From: Legionellaceae bacterium
GTDB lineage: Bacteria; Pseudomonadota; Gammaproteobacteria; UBA12402
Reading direction: 5' to 3'
Assembly: GCA_002707695.1 (NCBI GenBank)
Contig: PANR01000051.1
Coordinates: forward strand, 1 to 41,138
Length of the DNA: 41,138 nt
Below are positions 20,656 through 37,496 of the stretch, piece by piece; position 1 is the first letter of the stretch; every line of letters begins with the position of its first letter. A model generated the notes under the pieces. That model was not told where the DNA came from and searched no databases. It saw only the letters and a program-made list of their open reading frames with translations. A program made the position numbers and the translations under genes.

Positions 20656-20999
20656 ATGCAAGTGTAAAAACGACAGCGGCAAGACGTCAACCTCATTGGC
20701 ACTTTACGTTGTTGTCAAATGCATTGAGTAAAAAACAACGTGTGTGGTTGTTTGGTTTAATCGCGGCAATTGTTATTTCTGCATTTTCATTAATCTATGT
20801 GACAAGCTGGAATCGTCAACTTGTCAGTGAGCAACAAGAATTGCTGGCCGTACAATCACAACTACACAATCAATGGGGTCAGTTATTGTTAGAGCAAGGA
20901 GCCTATAGTAACCAGGCAACTATTGCCAATATGGCGGAGCAAAAGCTTGGCATGCAAATGCCATCAGCTAATAACATTGTAATGGTTCGACAGCAGTGA
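20652..20999 (+). CDS. ftsL: Cell division protein FtsL
   Basis: A 115-residue bitopic protein. A short cytoplasmic basic tail is followed by one membrane segment (WLFGLIAAIVISAFSLIYV) and a periplasmic coiled-coil-like region (QLVSEQQELLAVQSQL). FtsL joins FtsB and FtsQ in the divisome. The start at 20652 overlaps the rsmH stop and has GGAG upstream. Its own stop overlaps the ftsI GTG. Sequence conservation is low in this family, so synteny carries much of the call. Confidence 0.9.
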   Translation: MNASVKTTAARRQPHWHFTLLSNALSKKQRVWLFGLIAAIVISAFSLIYVTSWNRQLVSEQQELLAVQSQLHNQWGQLLLEQGAYSNQATIANMAEQKLGMQMPSANNIVMVRQQ

Positions 21000-22678
21000 A
21001 AAGCGGGGGTTCTTCATTCTTTCGCCCACTACGGTTTTATTGTTTATTAGCAGTTTTTGTTGTCGTCATATTGGCACTTCTTTTTCGCATGTTTTATCTC
21101 ACCGTTGTTGAGCGAGATTTTTTGCTCAATCAAAGTAATTTGCGCACAGAGCGTGTGGTGCCAACGCCTGCTTATCGCGGCATGTTGCTTGATCGAAATG
21201 GTCAGCGTTTAGCAGTGAGCACACCGGTTGATTCGGTGTGGGTAAATCCTCATGTGTTTGATTCAACACCTGACAACATTTTTCAACTCAGTCAAGTCTT
21301 GCAAATCTCACCGACTGATTTTGGCAAATTGCTTGCTAAGAATGCCAAAAAATATTTTCTCTACGTGAAGCGTGATGTGCCTGATAATATTGCTGATCAG
21401 GTTAAAGCACTGAATTTGCCAGGCGTTTATTTTCAACAAAGTTATCAGCGGTATTACCCGGAGGCAGACGCCACATCACAGTTATTGGGATTCACTAATG
21501 TTGATAACCAAGGGCAAGATGGATTAGAGCTGGCATTTAATTCAATTTTGCGAGGCCATCCTGGCAAAGAAAAAGTTTTAAAAGATCGCCTGGGTCAAAC
21601 AGTTGCTGTGTTAAACGTGTTAAAAACAGCAGAATCAGGTAAAAACGTCACGCTGAGCATTGATACGCGTTTGCAGTATTTGGCCTATCACACATTGATA
21701 GATACGGTGAATGAGTATGATGCTGATTCCGGGTCAGTTATTATTATGGATCCACGCAACGGCGAAATTTTAGCGATGGCCAACGCGCCTTCCTATGACC
21801 CTAATCATCGCACCGGTTCGCCTGATGCCAGTTATCGCAATCGCGCTGTCACTGATGTGTATGAACCAGGTTCAACAATGAAAACCTTTAGTATTGCCAG
21901 TGCATTATCAACGGGTAAGTTTACCCCAGACTCAAAAATTGATACGACCAGTGATGGTGTTTATCGTGTCGGGCATCACACGATTCGCGACGACACCAAA
22001 AATGGCGTCATCACAGTGACAAAAATCTTGCAGGTTTCAAGTAATATTGGTGCGACTAAAATAACGTTAGCCTCACCACCCGAACAGCTTTTAAATTTTC
22101 TACACACCATGGGTTTTGCGCAAAAACCCGGTGGTGAATTTCCTGGCCAAAGCGCAGGGTTTATTCCGCACTATAAGCACTGGAGTGATTTTGAGTTAGC
22201 CACCTTGTCATTTGGGTATGGCATTGATGCAACGCCTTTGCAGTTAGCGCGCGCTTACAGTGCTATTGCTAATGGTGGTCACCAGTGTCCGATTACTGTG
22301 ATTAAGCGCACACAAGCACCGGTTTGTCCGCAAATTATGAGTCCACAATTGGCAAATCAAATGCTCACCATGATGCAAGCCGTGTTGGCAACAGGTGGCA
22401 CCGGTACACTTGCGCGCATTAAGGGGTATCATGTTGCCGGTAAAACAGGCACGTCTTATATTGCCAAACCGGGCGGTGGTTACTATAAAGATGAATATAA
22501 CTCATCGTTTGTTGGCATTGCGCCGGCAACGAATCCACAGCTAGAAGTGTTGGTGCTAATTCGTAATCCGCATCACCAGCATTTCGGCGCGATTGTAGCC
22601 GCACCTGCTGTGCAAAAAATCCTCTCTGGCGCATTGCGTATTCTTAATATTCCACCGGATGATTTAGGCAGTTCGTAG
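20996..22678 (+). CDS. ftsI: Peptidoglycan transpeptidase FtsI (PBP3)
   Basis: A 560-residue septal class B penicillin-binding protein. An N-terminal membrane anchor (about residues 12-32) is followed by the pedestal domain and a transpeptidase with GSTMK (nucleophile Ser), SSN (VSSNIGAT) and KTGTS motifs. It crosslinks septal murein with FtsW. The frame begins with GTG overlapping the ftsL stop. Downstream synteny is broken: murE is over 1.1 kb away, beyond three secreted-protein cassettes. Confidence 0.97.
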   Translation: MKSGGSSFFRPLRFYCLLAVFVVVILALLFRMFYLTVVERDFLLNQSNLRTERVVPTPAYRGMLLDRNGQRLAVSTPVDSVWVNPHVFDSTPDNIFQLSQVLQISPTDFGKLLAKNAKKYFLYVKRDVPDNIADQVKALNLPGVYFQQSYQRYYPEADATSQLLGFTNVDNQGQDGLELAFNSILRGHPGKEKVLKDRLGQTVAVLNVLKTAESGKNVTLSIDTRLQYLAYHTLIDTVNEYDADSGSVIIMDPRNGEILAMANAPSYDPNHRTGSPDASYRNRAVTDVYEPGSTMKTFSIASALSTGKFTPDSKIDTTSDGVYRVGHHTIRDDTKNGVITVTKILQVSSNIGATKITLASPPEQLLNFLHTMGFAQKPGGEFPGQSAGFIPHYKHWSDFELATLSFGYGIDATPLQLARAYSAIANGGHQCPITVIKRTQAPVCPQIMSPQLANQMLTMMQAVLATGGTGTLARIKGYHVAGKTGTSYIAKPGGGYYKDEYNSSFVGIAPATNPQLEVLVLIRNPHHQHFGAIVAAPAVQKILSGALRILNIPPDDLGSS

Positions 22679-22723
22679 CCTGTATAGCAATTCTATCATC
22701 TTGTGCTACTATTAGAGAACAAT

Positions 22724-22810
22724 GTTCATATACACAAGGAGTGATTTCATGAAAAAAGTCAGTTTACTCGTATTATCAGGTGCGTTATTGATGGGTAGCG
22801 CGATGGCTGC
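22724..22810 (+). repeat. Leader cassette copy 1 (RBS plus signal-peptide coding block)
   Basis: An 87-base block holding GTTCATATACACAAGGAGTG and the codons for MKKVSLLVLSGALLMGSAMA. It matches copies at 23072-23158 and 23474-23560 without any gap; copies 1 and 2 differ at only about three bases. Homology stops abruptly after the signal peptide. Confidence 0.9.
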
Positions 22811-23039
22811 CAGCTCGCAGACAGTGGCTTATTTTAGAACTCGTTCTGCGTCTTCTGCCAATTCGGCAGCGCTTAGTTCATATCAAAATGGAGTATGTAG
22901 TGGTACGGTGAATCCTTGCGTTTTTCCATATCCAGTGCCAGCACCAGGGCCACGACAAGGGTCAGGATCTCAGAACAATCCGAATCTGCCTTCGTGTGCT
23001 CGCACGCTTTCTTGTGCTCCAGCACCACAAGGCCTGTAG
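22749..23039 (+). CDS. Secreted protein, tandem cassette 1
   Basis: A 96-residue protein with a signal peptide (MKKVSLLVLSGALLMGSAMAA) and AAGGAG 8 bases upstream of the ATG. The mature part has Ser-rich (RTRSASSANSAALSS) and Pro/Gly-rich (PYPVPAPGPRQGSG) stretches and four Cys (CSG, NPC, SC, SC). No domain was recognised. The stop lies within the GTAGCCCGTAT repeat that follows each cassette. It is one of three neighbours with near-identical leaders and unrelated mature regions. Confidence 0.75.
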   Translation: MKKVSLLVLSGALLMGSAMAASSQTVAYFRTRSASSANSAALSSYQNGVCSGTVNPCVFPYPVPAPGPRQGSGSQNNPNLPSCARTLSCAPAPQGL

Positions 23040-23060
23040 CCCGTATCCAGCGCAGCGGGA
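23036..23060. repeat. GTAGCCCGTATCCAGCGCAG repeat, copy A
   Basis: The sequence GTAGCCCGTATCCAGCGCAG follows cassette 1. Near-identical copies follow cassettes 2 (23452-23470) and 3 (23788-23819). It probably provided homology for the tandem duplication. Confidence 0.65.
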
Positions 23061-23071
23061 TAGAGAGCAAA

Positions 23072-23158
23072 GTTCATATACACAAGGAGTGATTTTATGA
23101 AAAAAGTCAGTTTACTCGTATTATCAGGTGCGTTATTAATGGGTAGTGCGATGGCTGC
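23072..23158 (+). repeat. Leader cassette copy 2
   Basis: The second copy of the 87-base ribosome-site and signal-peptide block, collinear with copies 1 and 3. Confidence 0.9.
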
Positions 23159-23423
23159 TAACTTTTATCGTGTCAATAATGAGGTCTTAAGACCGCAATA
23201 TCAGGCGAGCGGCACAACATCTCAATATCTGGCGTTACACAGGAGTTATACGATGTCTTCCAGGTCCTCAGCCTTGCAGCAGATAGAGCAGCAGGCGGAG
23301 CAGCCGGCAGCAGCAGCGCATGCCGCCGCACTGGCTAACGTCGCAGAGCATGAGCAGAGCCCAGCTGAGCAGCAGGCAAGGCGGCGGGCAGAGCAGTACG
23401 ACCTGGAGCGTGAAGACCAGTGA
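23097..23423 (+). CDS. Secreted protein, tandem cassette 2
   Basis: A 108-residue protein sharing the signal peptide of cassettes 1 and 3. The mature part is Ala/Gln/Glu-rich and probably a helical coiled coil (QQIEQQAEQPAAAAHAA, then EQSPAEQQARRRAEQ). It has no Cys, unlike its neighbours. The composition differs completely from cassettes 1 and 3 beyond the leader. Function unknown; periplasmic or extracellular location is inferred from the signal peptide. Confidence 0.72.
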   Translation: MKKVSLLVLSGALLMGSAMAANFYRVNNEVLRPQYQASGTTSQYLALHRSYTMSSRSSALQQIEQQAEQPAAAAHAAALANVAEHEQSPAEQQARRRAEQYDLEREDQ

Positions 23424-23451
23424 TTCGCCATCACGGAGCATACATAGCTCT

Positions 23452-23470
23452 GTAGCCCGTATGCAGCGCA
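23452..23470. repeat. GTAGCCCGTATGCAGCGCA repeat, copy B
   Basis: This copy is exactly shared with the first 19 bases of copy C at 23788. It lies three bases before the third leader block. Confidence 0.65.
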
Positions 23471-23473
23471 AAT

Positions 23474-23560
23474 GTTCATATACACAAGGAGTGATCTCAT
23501 GAAAAAAGTCAGTTTACTCGTATTGTCGGGTGCGCTATTGATGGGTGGTGCGATGGCTGC
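23474..23560 (+). repeat. Leader cassette copy 3
   Basis: The third copy of the 87-base block. It has a few more substitutions than copies 1 and 2, mostly at third codon positions, with the signal peptide kept (one Ser to Gly change). Confidence 0.9.
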
Positions 23561-23783
23561 TAGTTCGCAGGCGGATATGATTTATAGGGTTCGTACTCCT
23601 ATTAATCGCACTGTGCCGACTATTACTGTCAACTCATTTAGTAGCGTGACCTTGACGCCCAGTCAGTTAAAGGCCGCTCAAAACACCCCCGCAATAATTA
23701 CATGTTGCAGAGTTTCAAGTCAGTTTTTAGGACCCGGCTGGCTTACTTCGCCCACGAGTTCAGCAAACAGTCCTGTGTCTTAG
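23499..23783 (+). CDS. Secreted protein, tandem cassette 3
   Basis: A 94-residue protein with the shared signal peptide (MKKVSLLVLSGALLMGGAMA). The mature region is Thr/Ser-rich (TVPTITVNSFSSVTLTPSQ) with an adjacent Cys pair (IITCCRVSS). No known domain was recognised. Mature residues 1-4 (SSQ) resemble cassette 1, then similarity ends. It is followed by the longest copy of the GTAGCCCGTATG repeat. Confidence 0.72.
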   Translation: MKKVSLLVLSGALLMGGAMAASSQADMIYRVRTPINRTVPTITVNSFSSVTLTPSQLKAAQNTPAIITCCRVSSQFLGPGWLTSPTSSANSPVS

Positions 23784-23787
23784 CTCT

Positions 23788-23819
23788 GTAGCCCGTATGC
23801 AGCGCAGTGGAATACGGGG
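23788..23819. repeat. GTAGCCCGTATGCAGCGCAG repeat, copy C (full hairpin)
   Basis: This copy continues to ATACGGG, so CCCGTAT (23792-23798) can pair with ATACGGG (23812-23818). It resembles dispersed GTAGCCCGGAT-type palindromes of proteobacteria. It may also reduce read-through into murE. Confidence 0.6.
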
Positions 23820-23846: not shown

Positions 23847-23883
23847 TCTGTAAAACCTTGACCAGGTGTGCCACAATTTCCCT

Positions 23884-25326
23884 ATGAAGTTAAAAGGATT
23901 GCTCAGGGATATTGTGGCCACCCCAGTGGTGGTTGATCTTGATATTCATGGCCTTTCTATCGACAGTCGTACCCTAAAACCTGGCGATCTCTTTTTTGCG
24001 TACCCAGGTGTTCATCAAGATCGGCGCCAATGCATGAGTGAGGCGGTAGAGCGGGGTGCTGCAGCCATTTTGGTTGAGGTGGCTGATCAGCCTGATTTGC
24101 CCGAGCATGTGGGTATTCCATTCATTCCCGTGATGAACTTGCGCGACAAACTTGGTTTTATCGTGAGCCGGTTTTATGGCGATCCTTCTCAACAATTAAC
24201 TGTGATTGGTGTAACAGGCACAAATGGCAAAAGCTCGATTGTGCACCTAATTGCGCAAGCATTAACCTTGCTAGGGAAAAAGGTAGCGGCGATCAGCACG
24301 ATTGTGGCAGCACAAACCACACCCGATGCGATTACTATTCAGTCAAGTTTGGCTGACGAAGTCAAAAGCGGTGTTGATTATGCCGTGATTGAAGTGTCGT
24401 CTCACGCGCTTGATCAAGGGCGTGTCAATGGTGTGCAGTTTGACTATGCGGTATTTACCAACTTAACACGTGATCATCTCGATTATCATGGTGATATGCA
24501 GCACTATGCGTTAGCAAAATATCGGTTATTCACTTTTCCTGATCTCAAAGCGGGCGTGATCAACGAAGATGATCCGTTGGGCGCTGAGTGGATTGATAAC
24601 CTCAGTGCAAGGTTGCCTGTTTGCAGCTATTCCACGCATGATCTTCATCCACAAGCTAATGTTTCGGCATCCAATATCGAGTTTAGCTTGCAAGGCACGC
24701 GTGCAGCTATCAAAACGCCTTGGGGCGGTGGTCAATTGAGCAGTCAATTAATCGGCGAATTTAATCTTAGCAATTTATTAGCCGTGGTGGCTGTGCTGGG
24801 TGAGTTGGCTATAAGTTTAGATGATATTTTAGGCGTGCTGCCACAGCTCAGTCCTGTTTCTGGACGTATGGAGACATTGGGTGGTCAGCAAGGCCAGCCG
24901 CTCGTTGTGATTGATTATGCGCATACGCCTGATGCCTTGGCCAAAGCGCTTTCAAGCTTAGCTAAACACTGTTGTGGGAAATTATTTTGTGTATTTGGTT
25001 GTGGGGGAAGTCGCGATCGGGGTAAGCGTGCGCAAATGGGAAAAGTTGCTGAAAACTATGCCGATAGAATTATTGTGACTGATGATAATCCACGTGCTGA
25101 ATCACCTGAGCAGATCATTCAAGATATTTTTGCAGGGATTGATTGCCCAGAAAAAATTCATGTGGAAAGGAATCGCGAGCTAGCGATTAAATTCGCTGTG
25201 CAAGAGGCCTGTGCGGATGATATGATTTTGCTTGCGGGCAAAGGTCATGAGCAATGCCAGGATATTCAGGGCGTTAAGCATCCGTTTGATGAGCGGGCGA
25301 TTGTAAAAAAAGTGCTAAAGTATTGA
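23884..25326 (+). CDS. murE: UDP-MurNAc-L-Ala-D-Glu:meso-DAP ligase
   Basis: A 480-residue ATP-dependent ligase adding the third peptide residue to the cell-wall precursor. The ATP loop VTGTNGKSS, EVSSHALDQGR, FTNLTRDHLDYHG and DYAHTPDAL are present. The DDNPRAE motif indicates meso-diaminopimelate specificity. The ATG at 23884 gives the usual N-terminus; a GTG at 23866 is possible. murF, which normally follows, is missing. Confidence 0.96.
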   Translation: MKLKGLLRDIVATPVVVDLDIHGLSIDSRTLKPGDLFFAYPGVHQDRRQCMSEAVERGAAAILVEVADQPDLPEHVGIPFIPVMNLRDKLGFIVSRFYGDPSQQLTVIGVTGTNGKSSIVHLIAQALTLLGKKVAAISTIVAAQTTPDAITIQSSLADEVKSGVDYAVIEVSSHALDQGRVNGVQFDYAVFTNLTRDHLDYHGDMQHYALAKYRLFTFPDLKAGVINEDDPLGAEWIDNLSARLPVCSYSTHDLHPQANVSASNIEFSLQGTRAAIKTPWGGGQLSSQLIGEFNLSNLLAVVAVLGELAISLDDILGVLPQLSPVSGRMETLGGQQGQPLVVIDYAHTPDALAKALSSLAKHCCGKLFCVFGCGGSRDRGKRAQMGKVAENYADRIIVTDDNPRAESPEQIIQDIFAGIDCPEKIHVERNRELAIKFAVQEACADDMILLAGKGHEQCQDIQGVKHPFDERAIVKKVLKY

Positions 25327-36904: not shown

Positions 36905-36962
36905 CTCCTCAAAAATCTGATTTTTTAGGAGTACACTCCTTATAAATCAAATTTTTGAGGAG
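36905..36962. promoter_or_regulatory. Double palindromic operator-like element
   Basis: Two successive 27-base dyads, CTCCTCAAAAAT...ATTTTTTAGGAG (36905-36931) and CTCCTTATAAAT...ATTTTTGAGGAG (36936-36962), are separated by TACA. Together they form a 54-base near-palindrome (36907-36960, 23 of 26 arm positions). The AGGAG-N4-CTCC core equals that of the element ahead of the DUF4143 gene (17058-17083). No gene of that type is next to it here. Confidence 0.6.
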
Positions 36963-37023
36963 TTGTTGTGTTCAGGCAAGTGTTGTTGACGACCACACGT
37001 TAGCGCATTGGCTGATGGTTGTT

Positions 37024-37058: not shown

Positions 37059-37496
37059 CTACTGGGTTGAAAAAACAACCACAGTCGTTCCCTGTGCTTG
37101 GCAGACAAATCCTTGCGAGCCATCAGCTTGTTTGGTAATAAAGACAGTCGACTTGGTGTTTGAACTTTTATCGGGTTTAGACACCGCTTGGCATTGCCCG
37201 GCAGGGTCTTGTGCATCGCCGATGGTGGCATTTAACTGCGCAGGGCCACCATAGGGCACGTAGCCTTTATCCTCATGCGATTGTGATGCATGGGGTGCAA
37301 CGGGGTCATTTTCCAGCTTGCCGAGGGAGTTTGTCACCACCACGCTTAATGGTTTTTGCAGATGGTTTACGATGGTCATATCTGCTTGGTCTGGGTGGCC
37401 TGGCGGCATGGGTGGAAAACCCGTGCTGGCTAATGCGGTGGCGCCGATGCCGGCCATTAAAGCTGTTGCTGCTAGTAATATTTTTGTTTTATTCAT
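37059..37496 (-). CDS. Secreted protein of unknown function
   Basis: A 145-residue protein with a signal peptide (MNKTKILLAATALMAGIGA to about residue 24) and AGGAG before the ATG. The mature part begins PPMPPGHPDQ, has a likely beta-sandwich region (MTIVNHLQKPLSVVVTN) and two Cys (AGQCQAV, GFVCQAQ). It is a single-gene unit closed by a strong terminator. It may fold like an immunoglobulin-type periplasmic protein, but no family was recognised. Confidence 0.72.
   Translation of the reverse strand: MNKTKILLAATALMAGIGATALASTGFPPMPPGHPDQADMTIVNHLQKPLSVVVTNSLGKLENDPVAPHASQSHEDKGYVPYGGPAQLNATIGDAQDPAGQCQAVSKPDKSSNTKSTVFITKQADGSQGFVCQAQGTTVVVFSTQ

Follow-up and report, generated by a model that had tools for sequence, protein, structure and literature searches.

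How did three neighbouring genes that share one leader but differ in their mature products come to lie inside the division and cell-wall (dcw) cluster of a bacterium, and do they form a diversifying set of exported proteins? The array occupies the ftsI-murE gap (Table 1) of the window, by which we mean the whole analysed stretch of 41,138 nt, one contig (C51) of a draft genome (1.35 Mb, 56 contigs, 62% complete). The host is a probable Legionella relative; among the best named matches of its FtsI are Legionellales draft genomes (43% identity), and family-mate genomes are nearer (50-53%). The earlier note on this DNA correctly placed the array between ftsI and murE, while the end that it gave, 23790, was too short, as the feature reaches the end of an intact REP palindrome at 23819. 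An assembly error is unlikely because the three copies differ from one another. A scan for promoters and terminators gave nothing clearly above shuffles, and cotranscription with the cell-wall operon is likely. The reading we prefer, with a probability of roughly 0.6, is that of a tandem family, young and specific to its lineage, whose three genes encode small Sec-exported proteins and were put into the ftsI-murE gap. Elsewhere in the window, a long ORF (3034-5010) appears by eye to consist of an FAD-oxidoreductase-like half and a cysteine-synthase-like half; it adjoins a separate cysteine-synthase-like ORF (1954-3006).

Table 1. Features of the array and its neighbours (window coordinates)
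Feature	Position	Strand	Evidence or remark
ftsI (peptidoglycan transpeptidase), upstream neighbour	20996..22678	+	NCBIfam FtsI/PBP2-type models
Possible REP remnant GTAGCCTGTATAGCA at the ftsI stop codon	22675..22689	+	One mismatch to REP core GTAGCCCGTAT
Leader copy 1, 5' untranslated block with AGGAG ribosome site	22725..22748	+	Repeat search, motif count, alignment
Cassette 1 ORF, 96 aa; predicted signal peptide 1-20 (AMA, then A); mature part Ser/Pro/Ala-rich, Cys 50, 57, 83, 89	22749..23039	+	TAG stop from REP
Damaged REP at the 1/2 junction, joined after GGGATA to leader upstream sequence	23036..23062	+	Model R1, 16.5 bits
Leader copy 2, 5' block	23073..23096	+	Motif count, alignment
Cassette 2 ORF, 108 aa; identical signal peptide; mature part acidic, Ala/Gln/Glu-rich, GC-rich	23097..23423	+	
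26-nt 3' block TAGCTCTGTAGCCCGTATGCAGCGCA, identical to 23781-23806	23445..23470	+	Sequence comparison
Leader copy 3, 5' block	23475..23498	+	Motif count, alignment
Cassette 3 ORF, 94 aa; signal peptide with one S to G change; mature part basic, Ser/Thr-rich, Cys 69-70	23499..23783	+	
Intact GTAG-class REP ending the array	23788..23819	+	Model R1, 47.2 bits, E 7e-11; all pairs standard
murE, downstream neighbour	23866..25326	+	NCBIfam murE

A repeat search of the window recovered the leader block three times, head to tail (22713-22815, 23061-23163 and 23463-23565), with 93% and 84% identity over 103 nt. The ungapped core extends from -24 to +63 and has no internal gaps across the copies, which confirms the 87-base block, repeated three times without gaps, that had been described earlier. 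From 24 nt 5' of the ATG through codon 21 the copies are 90-97% identical, and the ribosome-site motif TTCATATACACAAGGAGTGAT occurs three times in the window against 0.00 expected. The search for further leader copies proposed in the earlier note was run on DNA, with a profile (E up to 10) and with a pattern (three mismatches); no fourth copy was found in the 62%-complete genome. Over the 21 signal-peptide codons, pairwise silent/non-silent changes number 3/0, 5/1 and 4/1, the silent share expected from the structure of the genetic code being 22-35%; these counts are low and come from three comparisons that depend on one another. Since nearly all of these changes are synonymous, the signal peptide appears to have been under purifying selection once the copies had arisen.

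At the other end of the cassettes, the repeat GTAGCCCGTATG reported for each copy is present, but it is the left arm of a 32-bp palindrome (GTAGCCCGTATG...AATACGGG), a GTAG-class REP dispersed through the genome, and in array copy 1 it reads GTAGCCCGTATCC, not ...TG. A covariance model (R1) built from seven copies, including the array copy at 23788-23819, matches about 22 sites in the own genome, 92 in a family relative (G005) and 103 in a more distant genome (G010); most copies examined lie between ORFs. The distribution of the family is patchy, with ~100 copies in G005 and G010 and near absence from other members of the same family. With its unpaired GTAG terminus and palindromic stem, the array copy falls within the 20-40 bp class criterion. 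It resembles the GTAG-tagged REP palindromes described by Di Nocera et al. 2013 (PMC3733652) in having an unpaired GTAG at one end and a short palindromic stem, in its length of about 32 bp and in being dispersed, often downstream of genes. The GTAG end of this super-family is reported to supply a TAG stop in many cases (PMC3733652), and here the REP gives one to the flanking ORF in cassette 1, at C30:8100 and perhaps in ftsI. The TAG stop of ftsI lies in GTAGCCTGTAT at 22675. At this stop codon, GTAGCCTGTATAGCA has a T variant that also occurs in the intact REP at C22:5823, but it falls below the covariance-model threshold and is only suggestive of a REP remnant. Another family relative (G003) has CGTAGCCTGTATA at the matching position. 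Elsewhere in the window, a tandem pair of a 31-bp unit (36905-36963) is made of copies that are each a palindrome (CTCCTCAAAAATC...TTTTTGAGGAG).

Unlike in GTAG REPs generally, the element is cut and joined to the leader at the two internal array junctions. The REP inside the 3' block of cassette 2 (23452-23470) is cut at the 2/3 junction after ...GCGCA and is followed by leader-upstream sequence; the TAG of this block is in frame with both ORF 2 and ORF 3 and lies 24 nt beyond the TGA that ORF 2 actually uses. In our reading, short overlaps such as TA or GCA may be present at the joins. REPs truncated at the internal junctions but intact at the array end and elsewhere in the genome are consistent with two rounds of tandem duplication that broke in REPs. 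In E. coli, spontaneous rearrangements are known to break at REPs, and 22 of 90 new junctions that were sequenced fell within such elements (PMC3161906). The suggestion that the end repeats could seed recombination is thus sound in that the junction REPs plausibly took part; being dispersed elements, they carry no cassette-specific signal. No gene for the RAYT transposase (PF01797) linked to such REPs was found in the own, 62%-complete genome. G005 and G010 have one each, and no strong REP lies beside the G005 gene.

The three mature frames are open in the frame of the leader, which by dinucleotide shuffles has a chance of 0.08 x 0.03 x 0.027 = 6.6e-5, and the leader frame is the best-scoring codon frame in 3/3 ORFs. 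Mature codon scores are near 0 bits per codon, compared with 0.31-0.34 in dcw genes, and exceed those of stop-free shuffles with p values of 0.07, 0.017 and 0.063. A similarly weak score (-0.009 bits per codon) was obtained for another orphan exported ORF of the window, at 12827-13384. This ORF and one at 37059-37496, both on the minus strand, begin with what resembles a signal peptide and match no Pfam or NCBIfam model. Because the leader changes are mostly synonymous and the mature frames open, the three array genes look expressed or recently expressed; the near-zero codon score would also allow their mature parts to be badly adapted or in decay. It might be argued that the copies are degenerating or non-functional altogether, either duplicated junk with chance-open frames or pseudogenes, as the weak codon signal, the low complexity of mature part 2, the TGA of cassette 2 ahead of the shared TAG and the lack of relatives would allow. 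We find this very improbable in view of the almost entirely silent leader changes, the odds against three open frames and the agreement of the best frame with that of the leader.

Similarity ends differently in the different cassettes. Cassette 2 keeps 92-95% identity with the other two through codon 21 and then falls at once to background (25-33%); its mature part has nothing significant in common with mature parts 1 or 3. Mature parts 1 and 3 match at 23/42 nt right after the leader, the best value found (3e-5 of all diagonal windows score as high), and their proteins have ASSQ....R.R in common (global protein p 0.0065). Past the first ~40 bases this similarity fades and is not significant. 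The mature regions, earlier taken to be unrelated, are therefore so in the case of cassette 2, with its sharp break after the signal peptide, and not in that of parts 1 and 3. Of the two basic mature parts, part 1 has four cysteines and part 3 has two; mature part 2 is acidic, lacks cysteine, reaches a GC content of 0.675 and is partly made of a 22-bp CAG-type repeat (23287-23328). Structure prediction for ORFs 1 and 3 gave a pLDDT of 44 and no confident fold. A match of ORF 3, a Ser/Thr-rich protein, to the Tir model (E 0.018, 15.5 bits versus a cut-off of 25) was dismissed. The earlier note had also raised the case that the mature regions are frameshifted copies of one another; it fails because no local DNA alignment between them is significant (p 0.98, 0.87 and 0.25). 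Among 27 cross-frame protein comparisons, the highest score (p 0.004) reflects Ser-rich composition, not a frameshift.

The leader has a dS of 0.25-0.45, based on about 14 sites for each value and with a large error. When neutral divergence of the mature parts was simulated with indels, d = 0.3 always left clear alignments, and at d = 0.5 the sequences became unalignable in 1% of runs and were still alignable in 99%. The leader dS is too low, in the light of these simulations, for the mature parts not to have changed faster than the silent sites of the leader. Neutral substitution alone is thus insufficient for the tandem-family reading, and selection, indels, replacement or gene conversion of the leader must be added. 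Gene conversion could stand as an explanation of its own: ordinary paralogues would have diverged long ago in their mature parts, with leaders homogenised so that they look younger than the duplications. A leader silent distance far too low for the divergence elsewhere would be expected in this case, and the copies lie only 350-400 bp apart; the shared block of about 87 nt is nevertheless short for conversion, and the upstream junction differs in each copy. We consider this explanation quite improbable.

Replacement, too, can be carried further. The 5' leader and the 3' REP block would stay in place while the mature segment is swapped by recombination, which would give a small diversifying repertoire. 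Cassette 2 speaks for such swapping through its abrupt loss of identity after codon 21, through the 26-nt 3' block with an in-register stop that it shares unchanged with cassette 3, and through the GC content and charge that set its mature part apart; simulated neutral divergence, moreover, fails to account for the lost similarity. Cassettes 1 and 3, however, decay gradually with no break, and the 62%-complete genome yielded neither donor or silent mature segments nor another cassette array. We regard cassette replacement as unlikely, and think it slightly less probable still that the fixed ribosome-site/signal-peptide module and the REP block frame a mature segment exchanged wholesale, with new exported proteins arising at a housekeeping locus. 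For cassettes 1 and 3, plain divergence after duplication suffices, with no dedicated mechanism. For mature part 2 we favour replacement or repeat expansion within the old gene frame, because of the abrupt break, the raised GC content, the CAG-type repeat and the shared 26-nt 3' block. Of the diversifying exported set with a fixed secretion module that was originally proposed, one conserved module with differing mature proteins remains; active diversification is not borne out by three copies, no donors in the 62%-complete genome, ordinary REPs and collections that yielded no relative in which swapping or presence and absence could be seen.

The signal peptide has the Sec/SPase I features of a basic n-region, a hydrophobic core, AxA and no lipobox cysteine. 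As judged by these sequence features, it would be MKKVSLLVLSGALLMGSAMA followed by A, with a core hydropathy of 1.8, and the proteins are predicted to be exported by Sec and cleaved after AMA. The genome encodes a type II secretion locus, in which GspD and GspE pass their cut-offs; we read the ORF adjoining gspD/gspE as GspF-like. The array proteins could therefore exit the cell by type II secretion, and we favour small disordered proteins that are either periplasmic or type-II-secreted. It would be speculative to assign them a role in contact with a host or a competitor.

Relatives of the array were found neither in 54 related genomes nor, by profile search, in the other 368 of 369 genomes of the class, nor by a pattern scan of GTDB-220. 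There were likewise no hits among phages (searched with ORF 3), plasmids (with ORF 1 and the array DNA) or viral contigs (with the profile), nor in PHROGs, PADLOC and PDB; Rfam gave a chance match alone. The layout is real and unusual, and confined to one draft genome. In family relatives the ftsI-murE gap measures 60 (G005), 175 (G001) and 508 bp (G006) and contains no such gene, and G003 has no murE near ftsI; the gap thus tolerates insertions. The G006 gap (contig C63) holds an ORF with a GIY-YIG domain (L029:325-615, E 1e-16) flanked by GGATCCCGC-type repeats, suggesting a repeated insertion site.

Frog antimicrobial peptides and cone-snail toxins form families of tandem paralogues with a conserved signal peptide and a hypervariable mature part. 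The array works like them, with no homology implied, in its fixed export module, fast mature region and tandem duplication; it differs in being bacterial, in having just three copies and in having no known target. Precursor families of the prochlorosin/Nif11 type likewise comprise several genes with a constant N-terminal part and differing C-terminal parts, but the constant part of the array is a Sec-type signal peptide and not a leader for modification enzymes. Neither a RiPP precursor or leader family nor any other Pfam or NCBIfam model matched the array ORFs.

For the tandem family that we prefer, the course of events may have been as follows. A single leader-plus-mature gene ending in a GTAG-class REP would have been duplicated twice, so that at each junction a broken REP runs into sequence that starts about 0-15 nt before the conserved ribosome-site block. 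Thereafter the mature parts would have diverged very rapidly, while purifying selection would have preserved the signal peptide and its ribosome site. In cassette 2 the mature part probably owes some of its present sequence to replacement or to repeat expansion. Cleavage after AMA and release of the proteins into the periplasm are most likely, and type II secretion could then carry them out of the cell. Were the proteins not made, the array would be a minor curiosity of a single draft genome. If they are made, it is a compact case of new exported proteins arising in bacteria, in which selection keeps the export module while the payload changes beyond recognition and REP elements mark the breakpoints of the array; it would then allow one to test directly if REP-bounded duplication is a source of new orphan secreted proteins in gammaproteobacteria.
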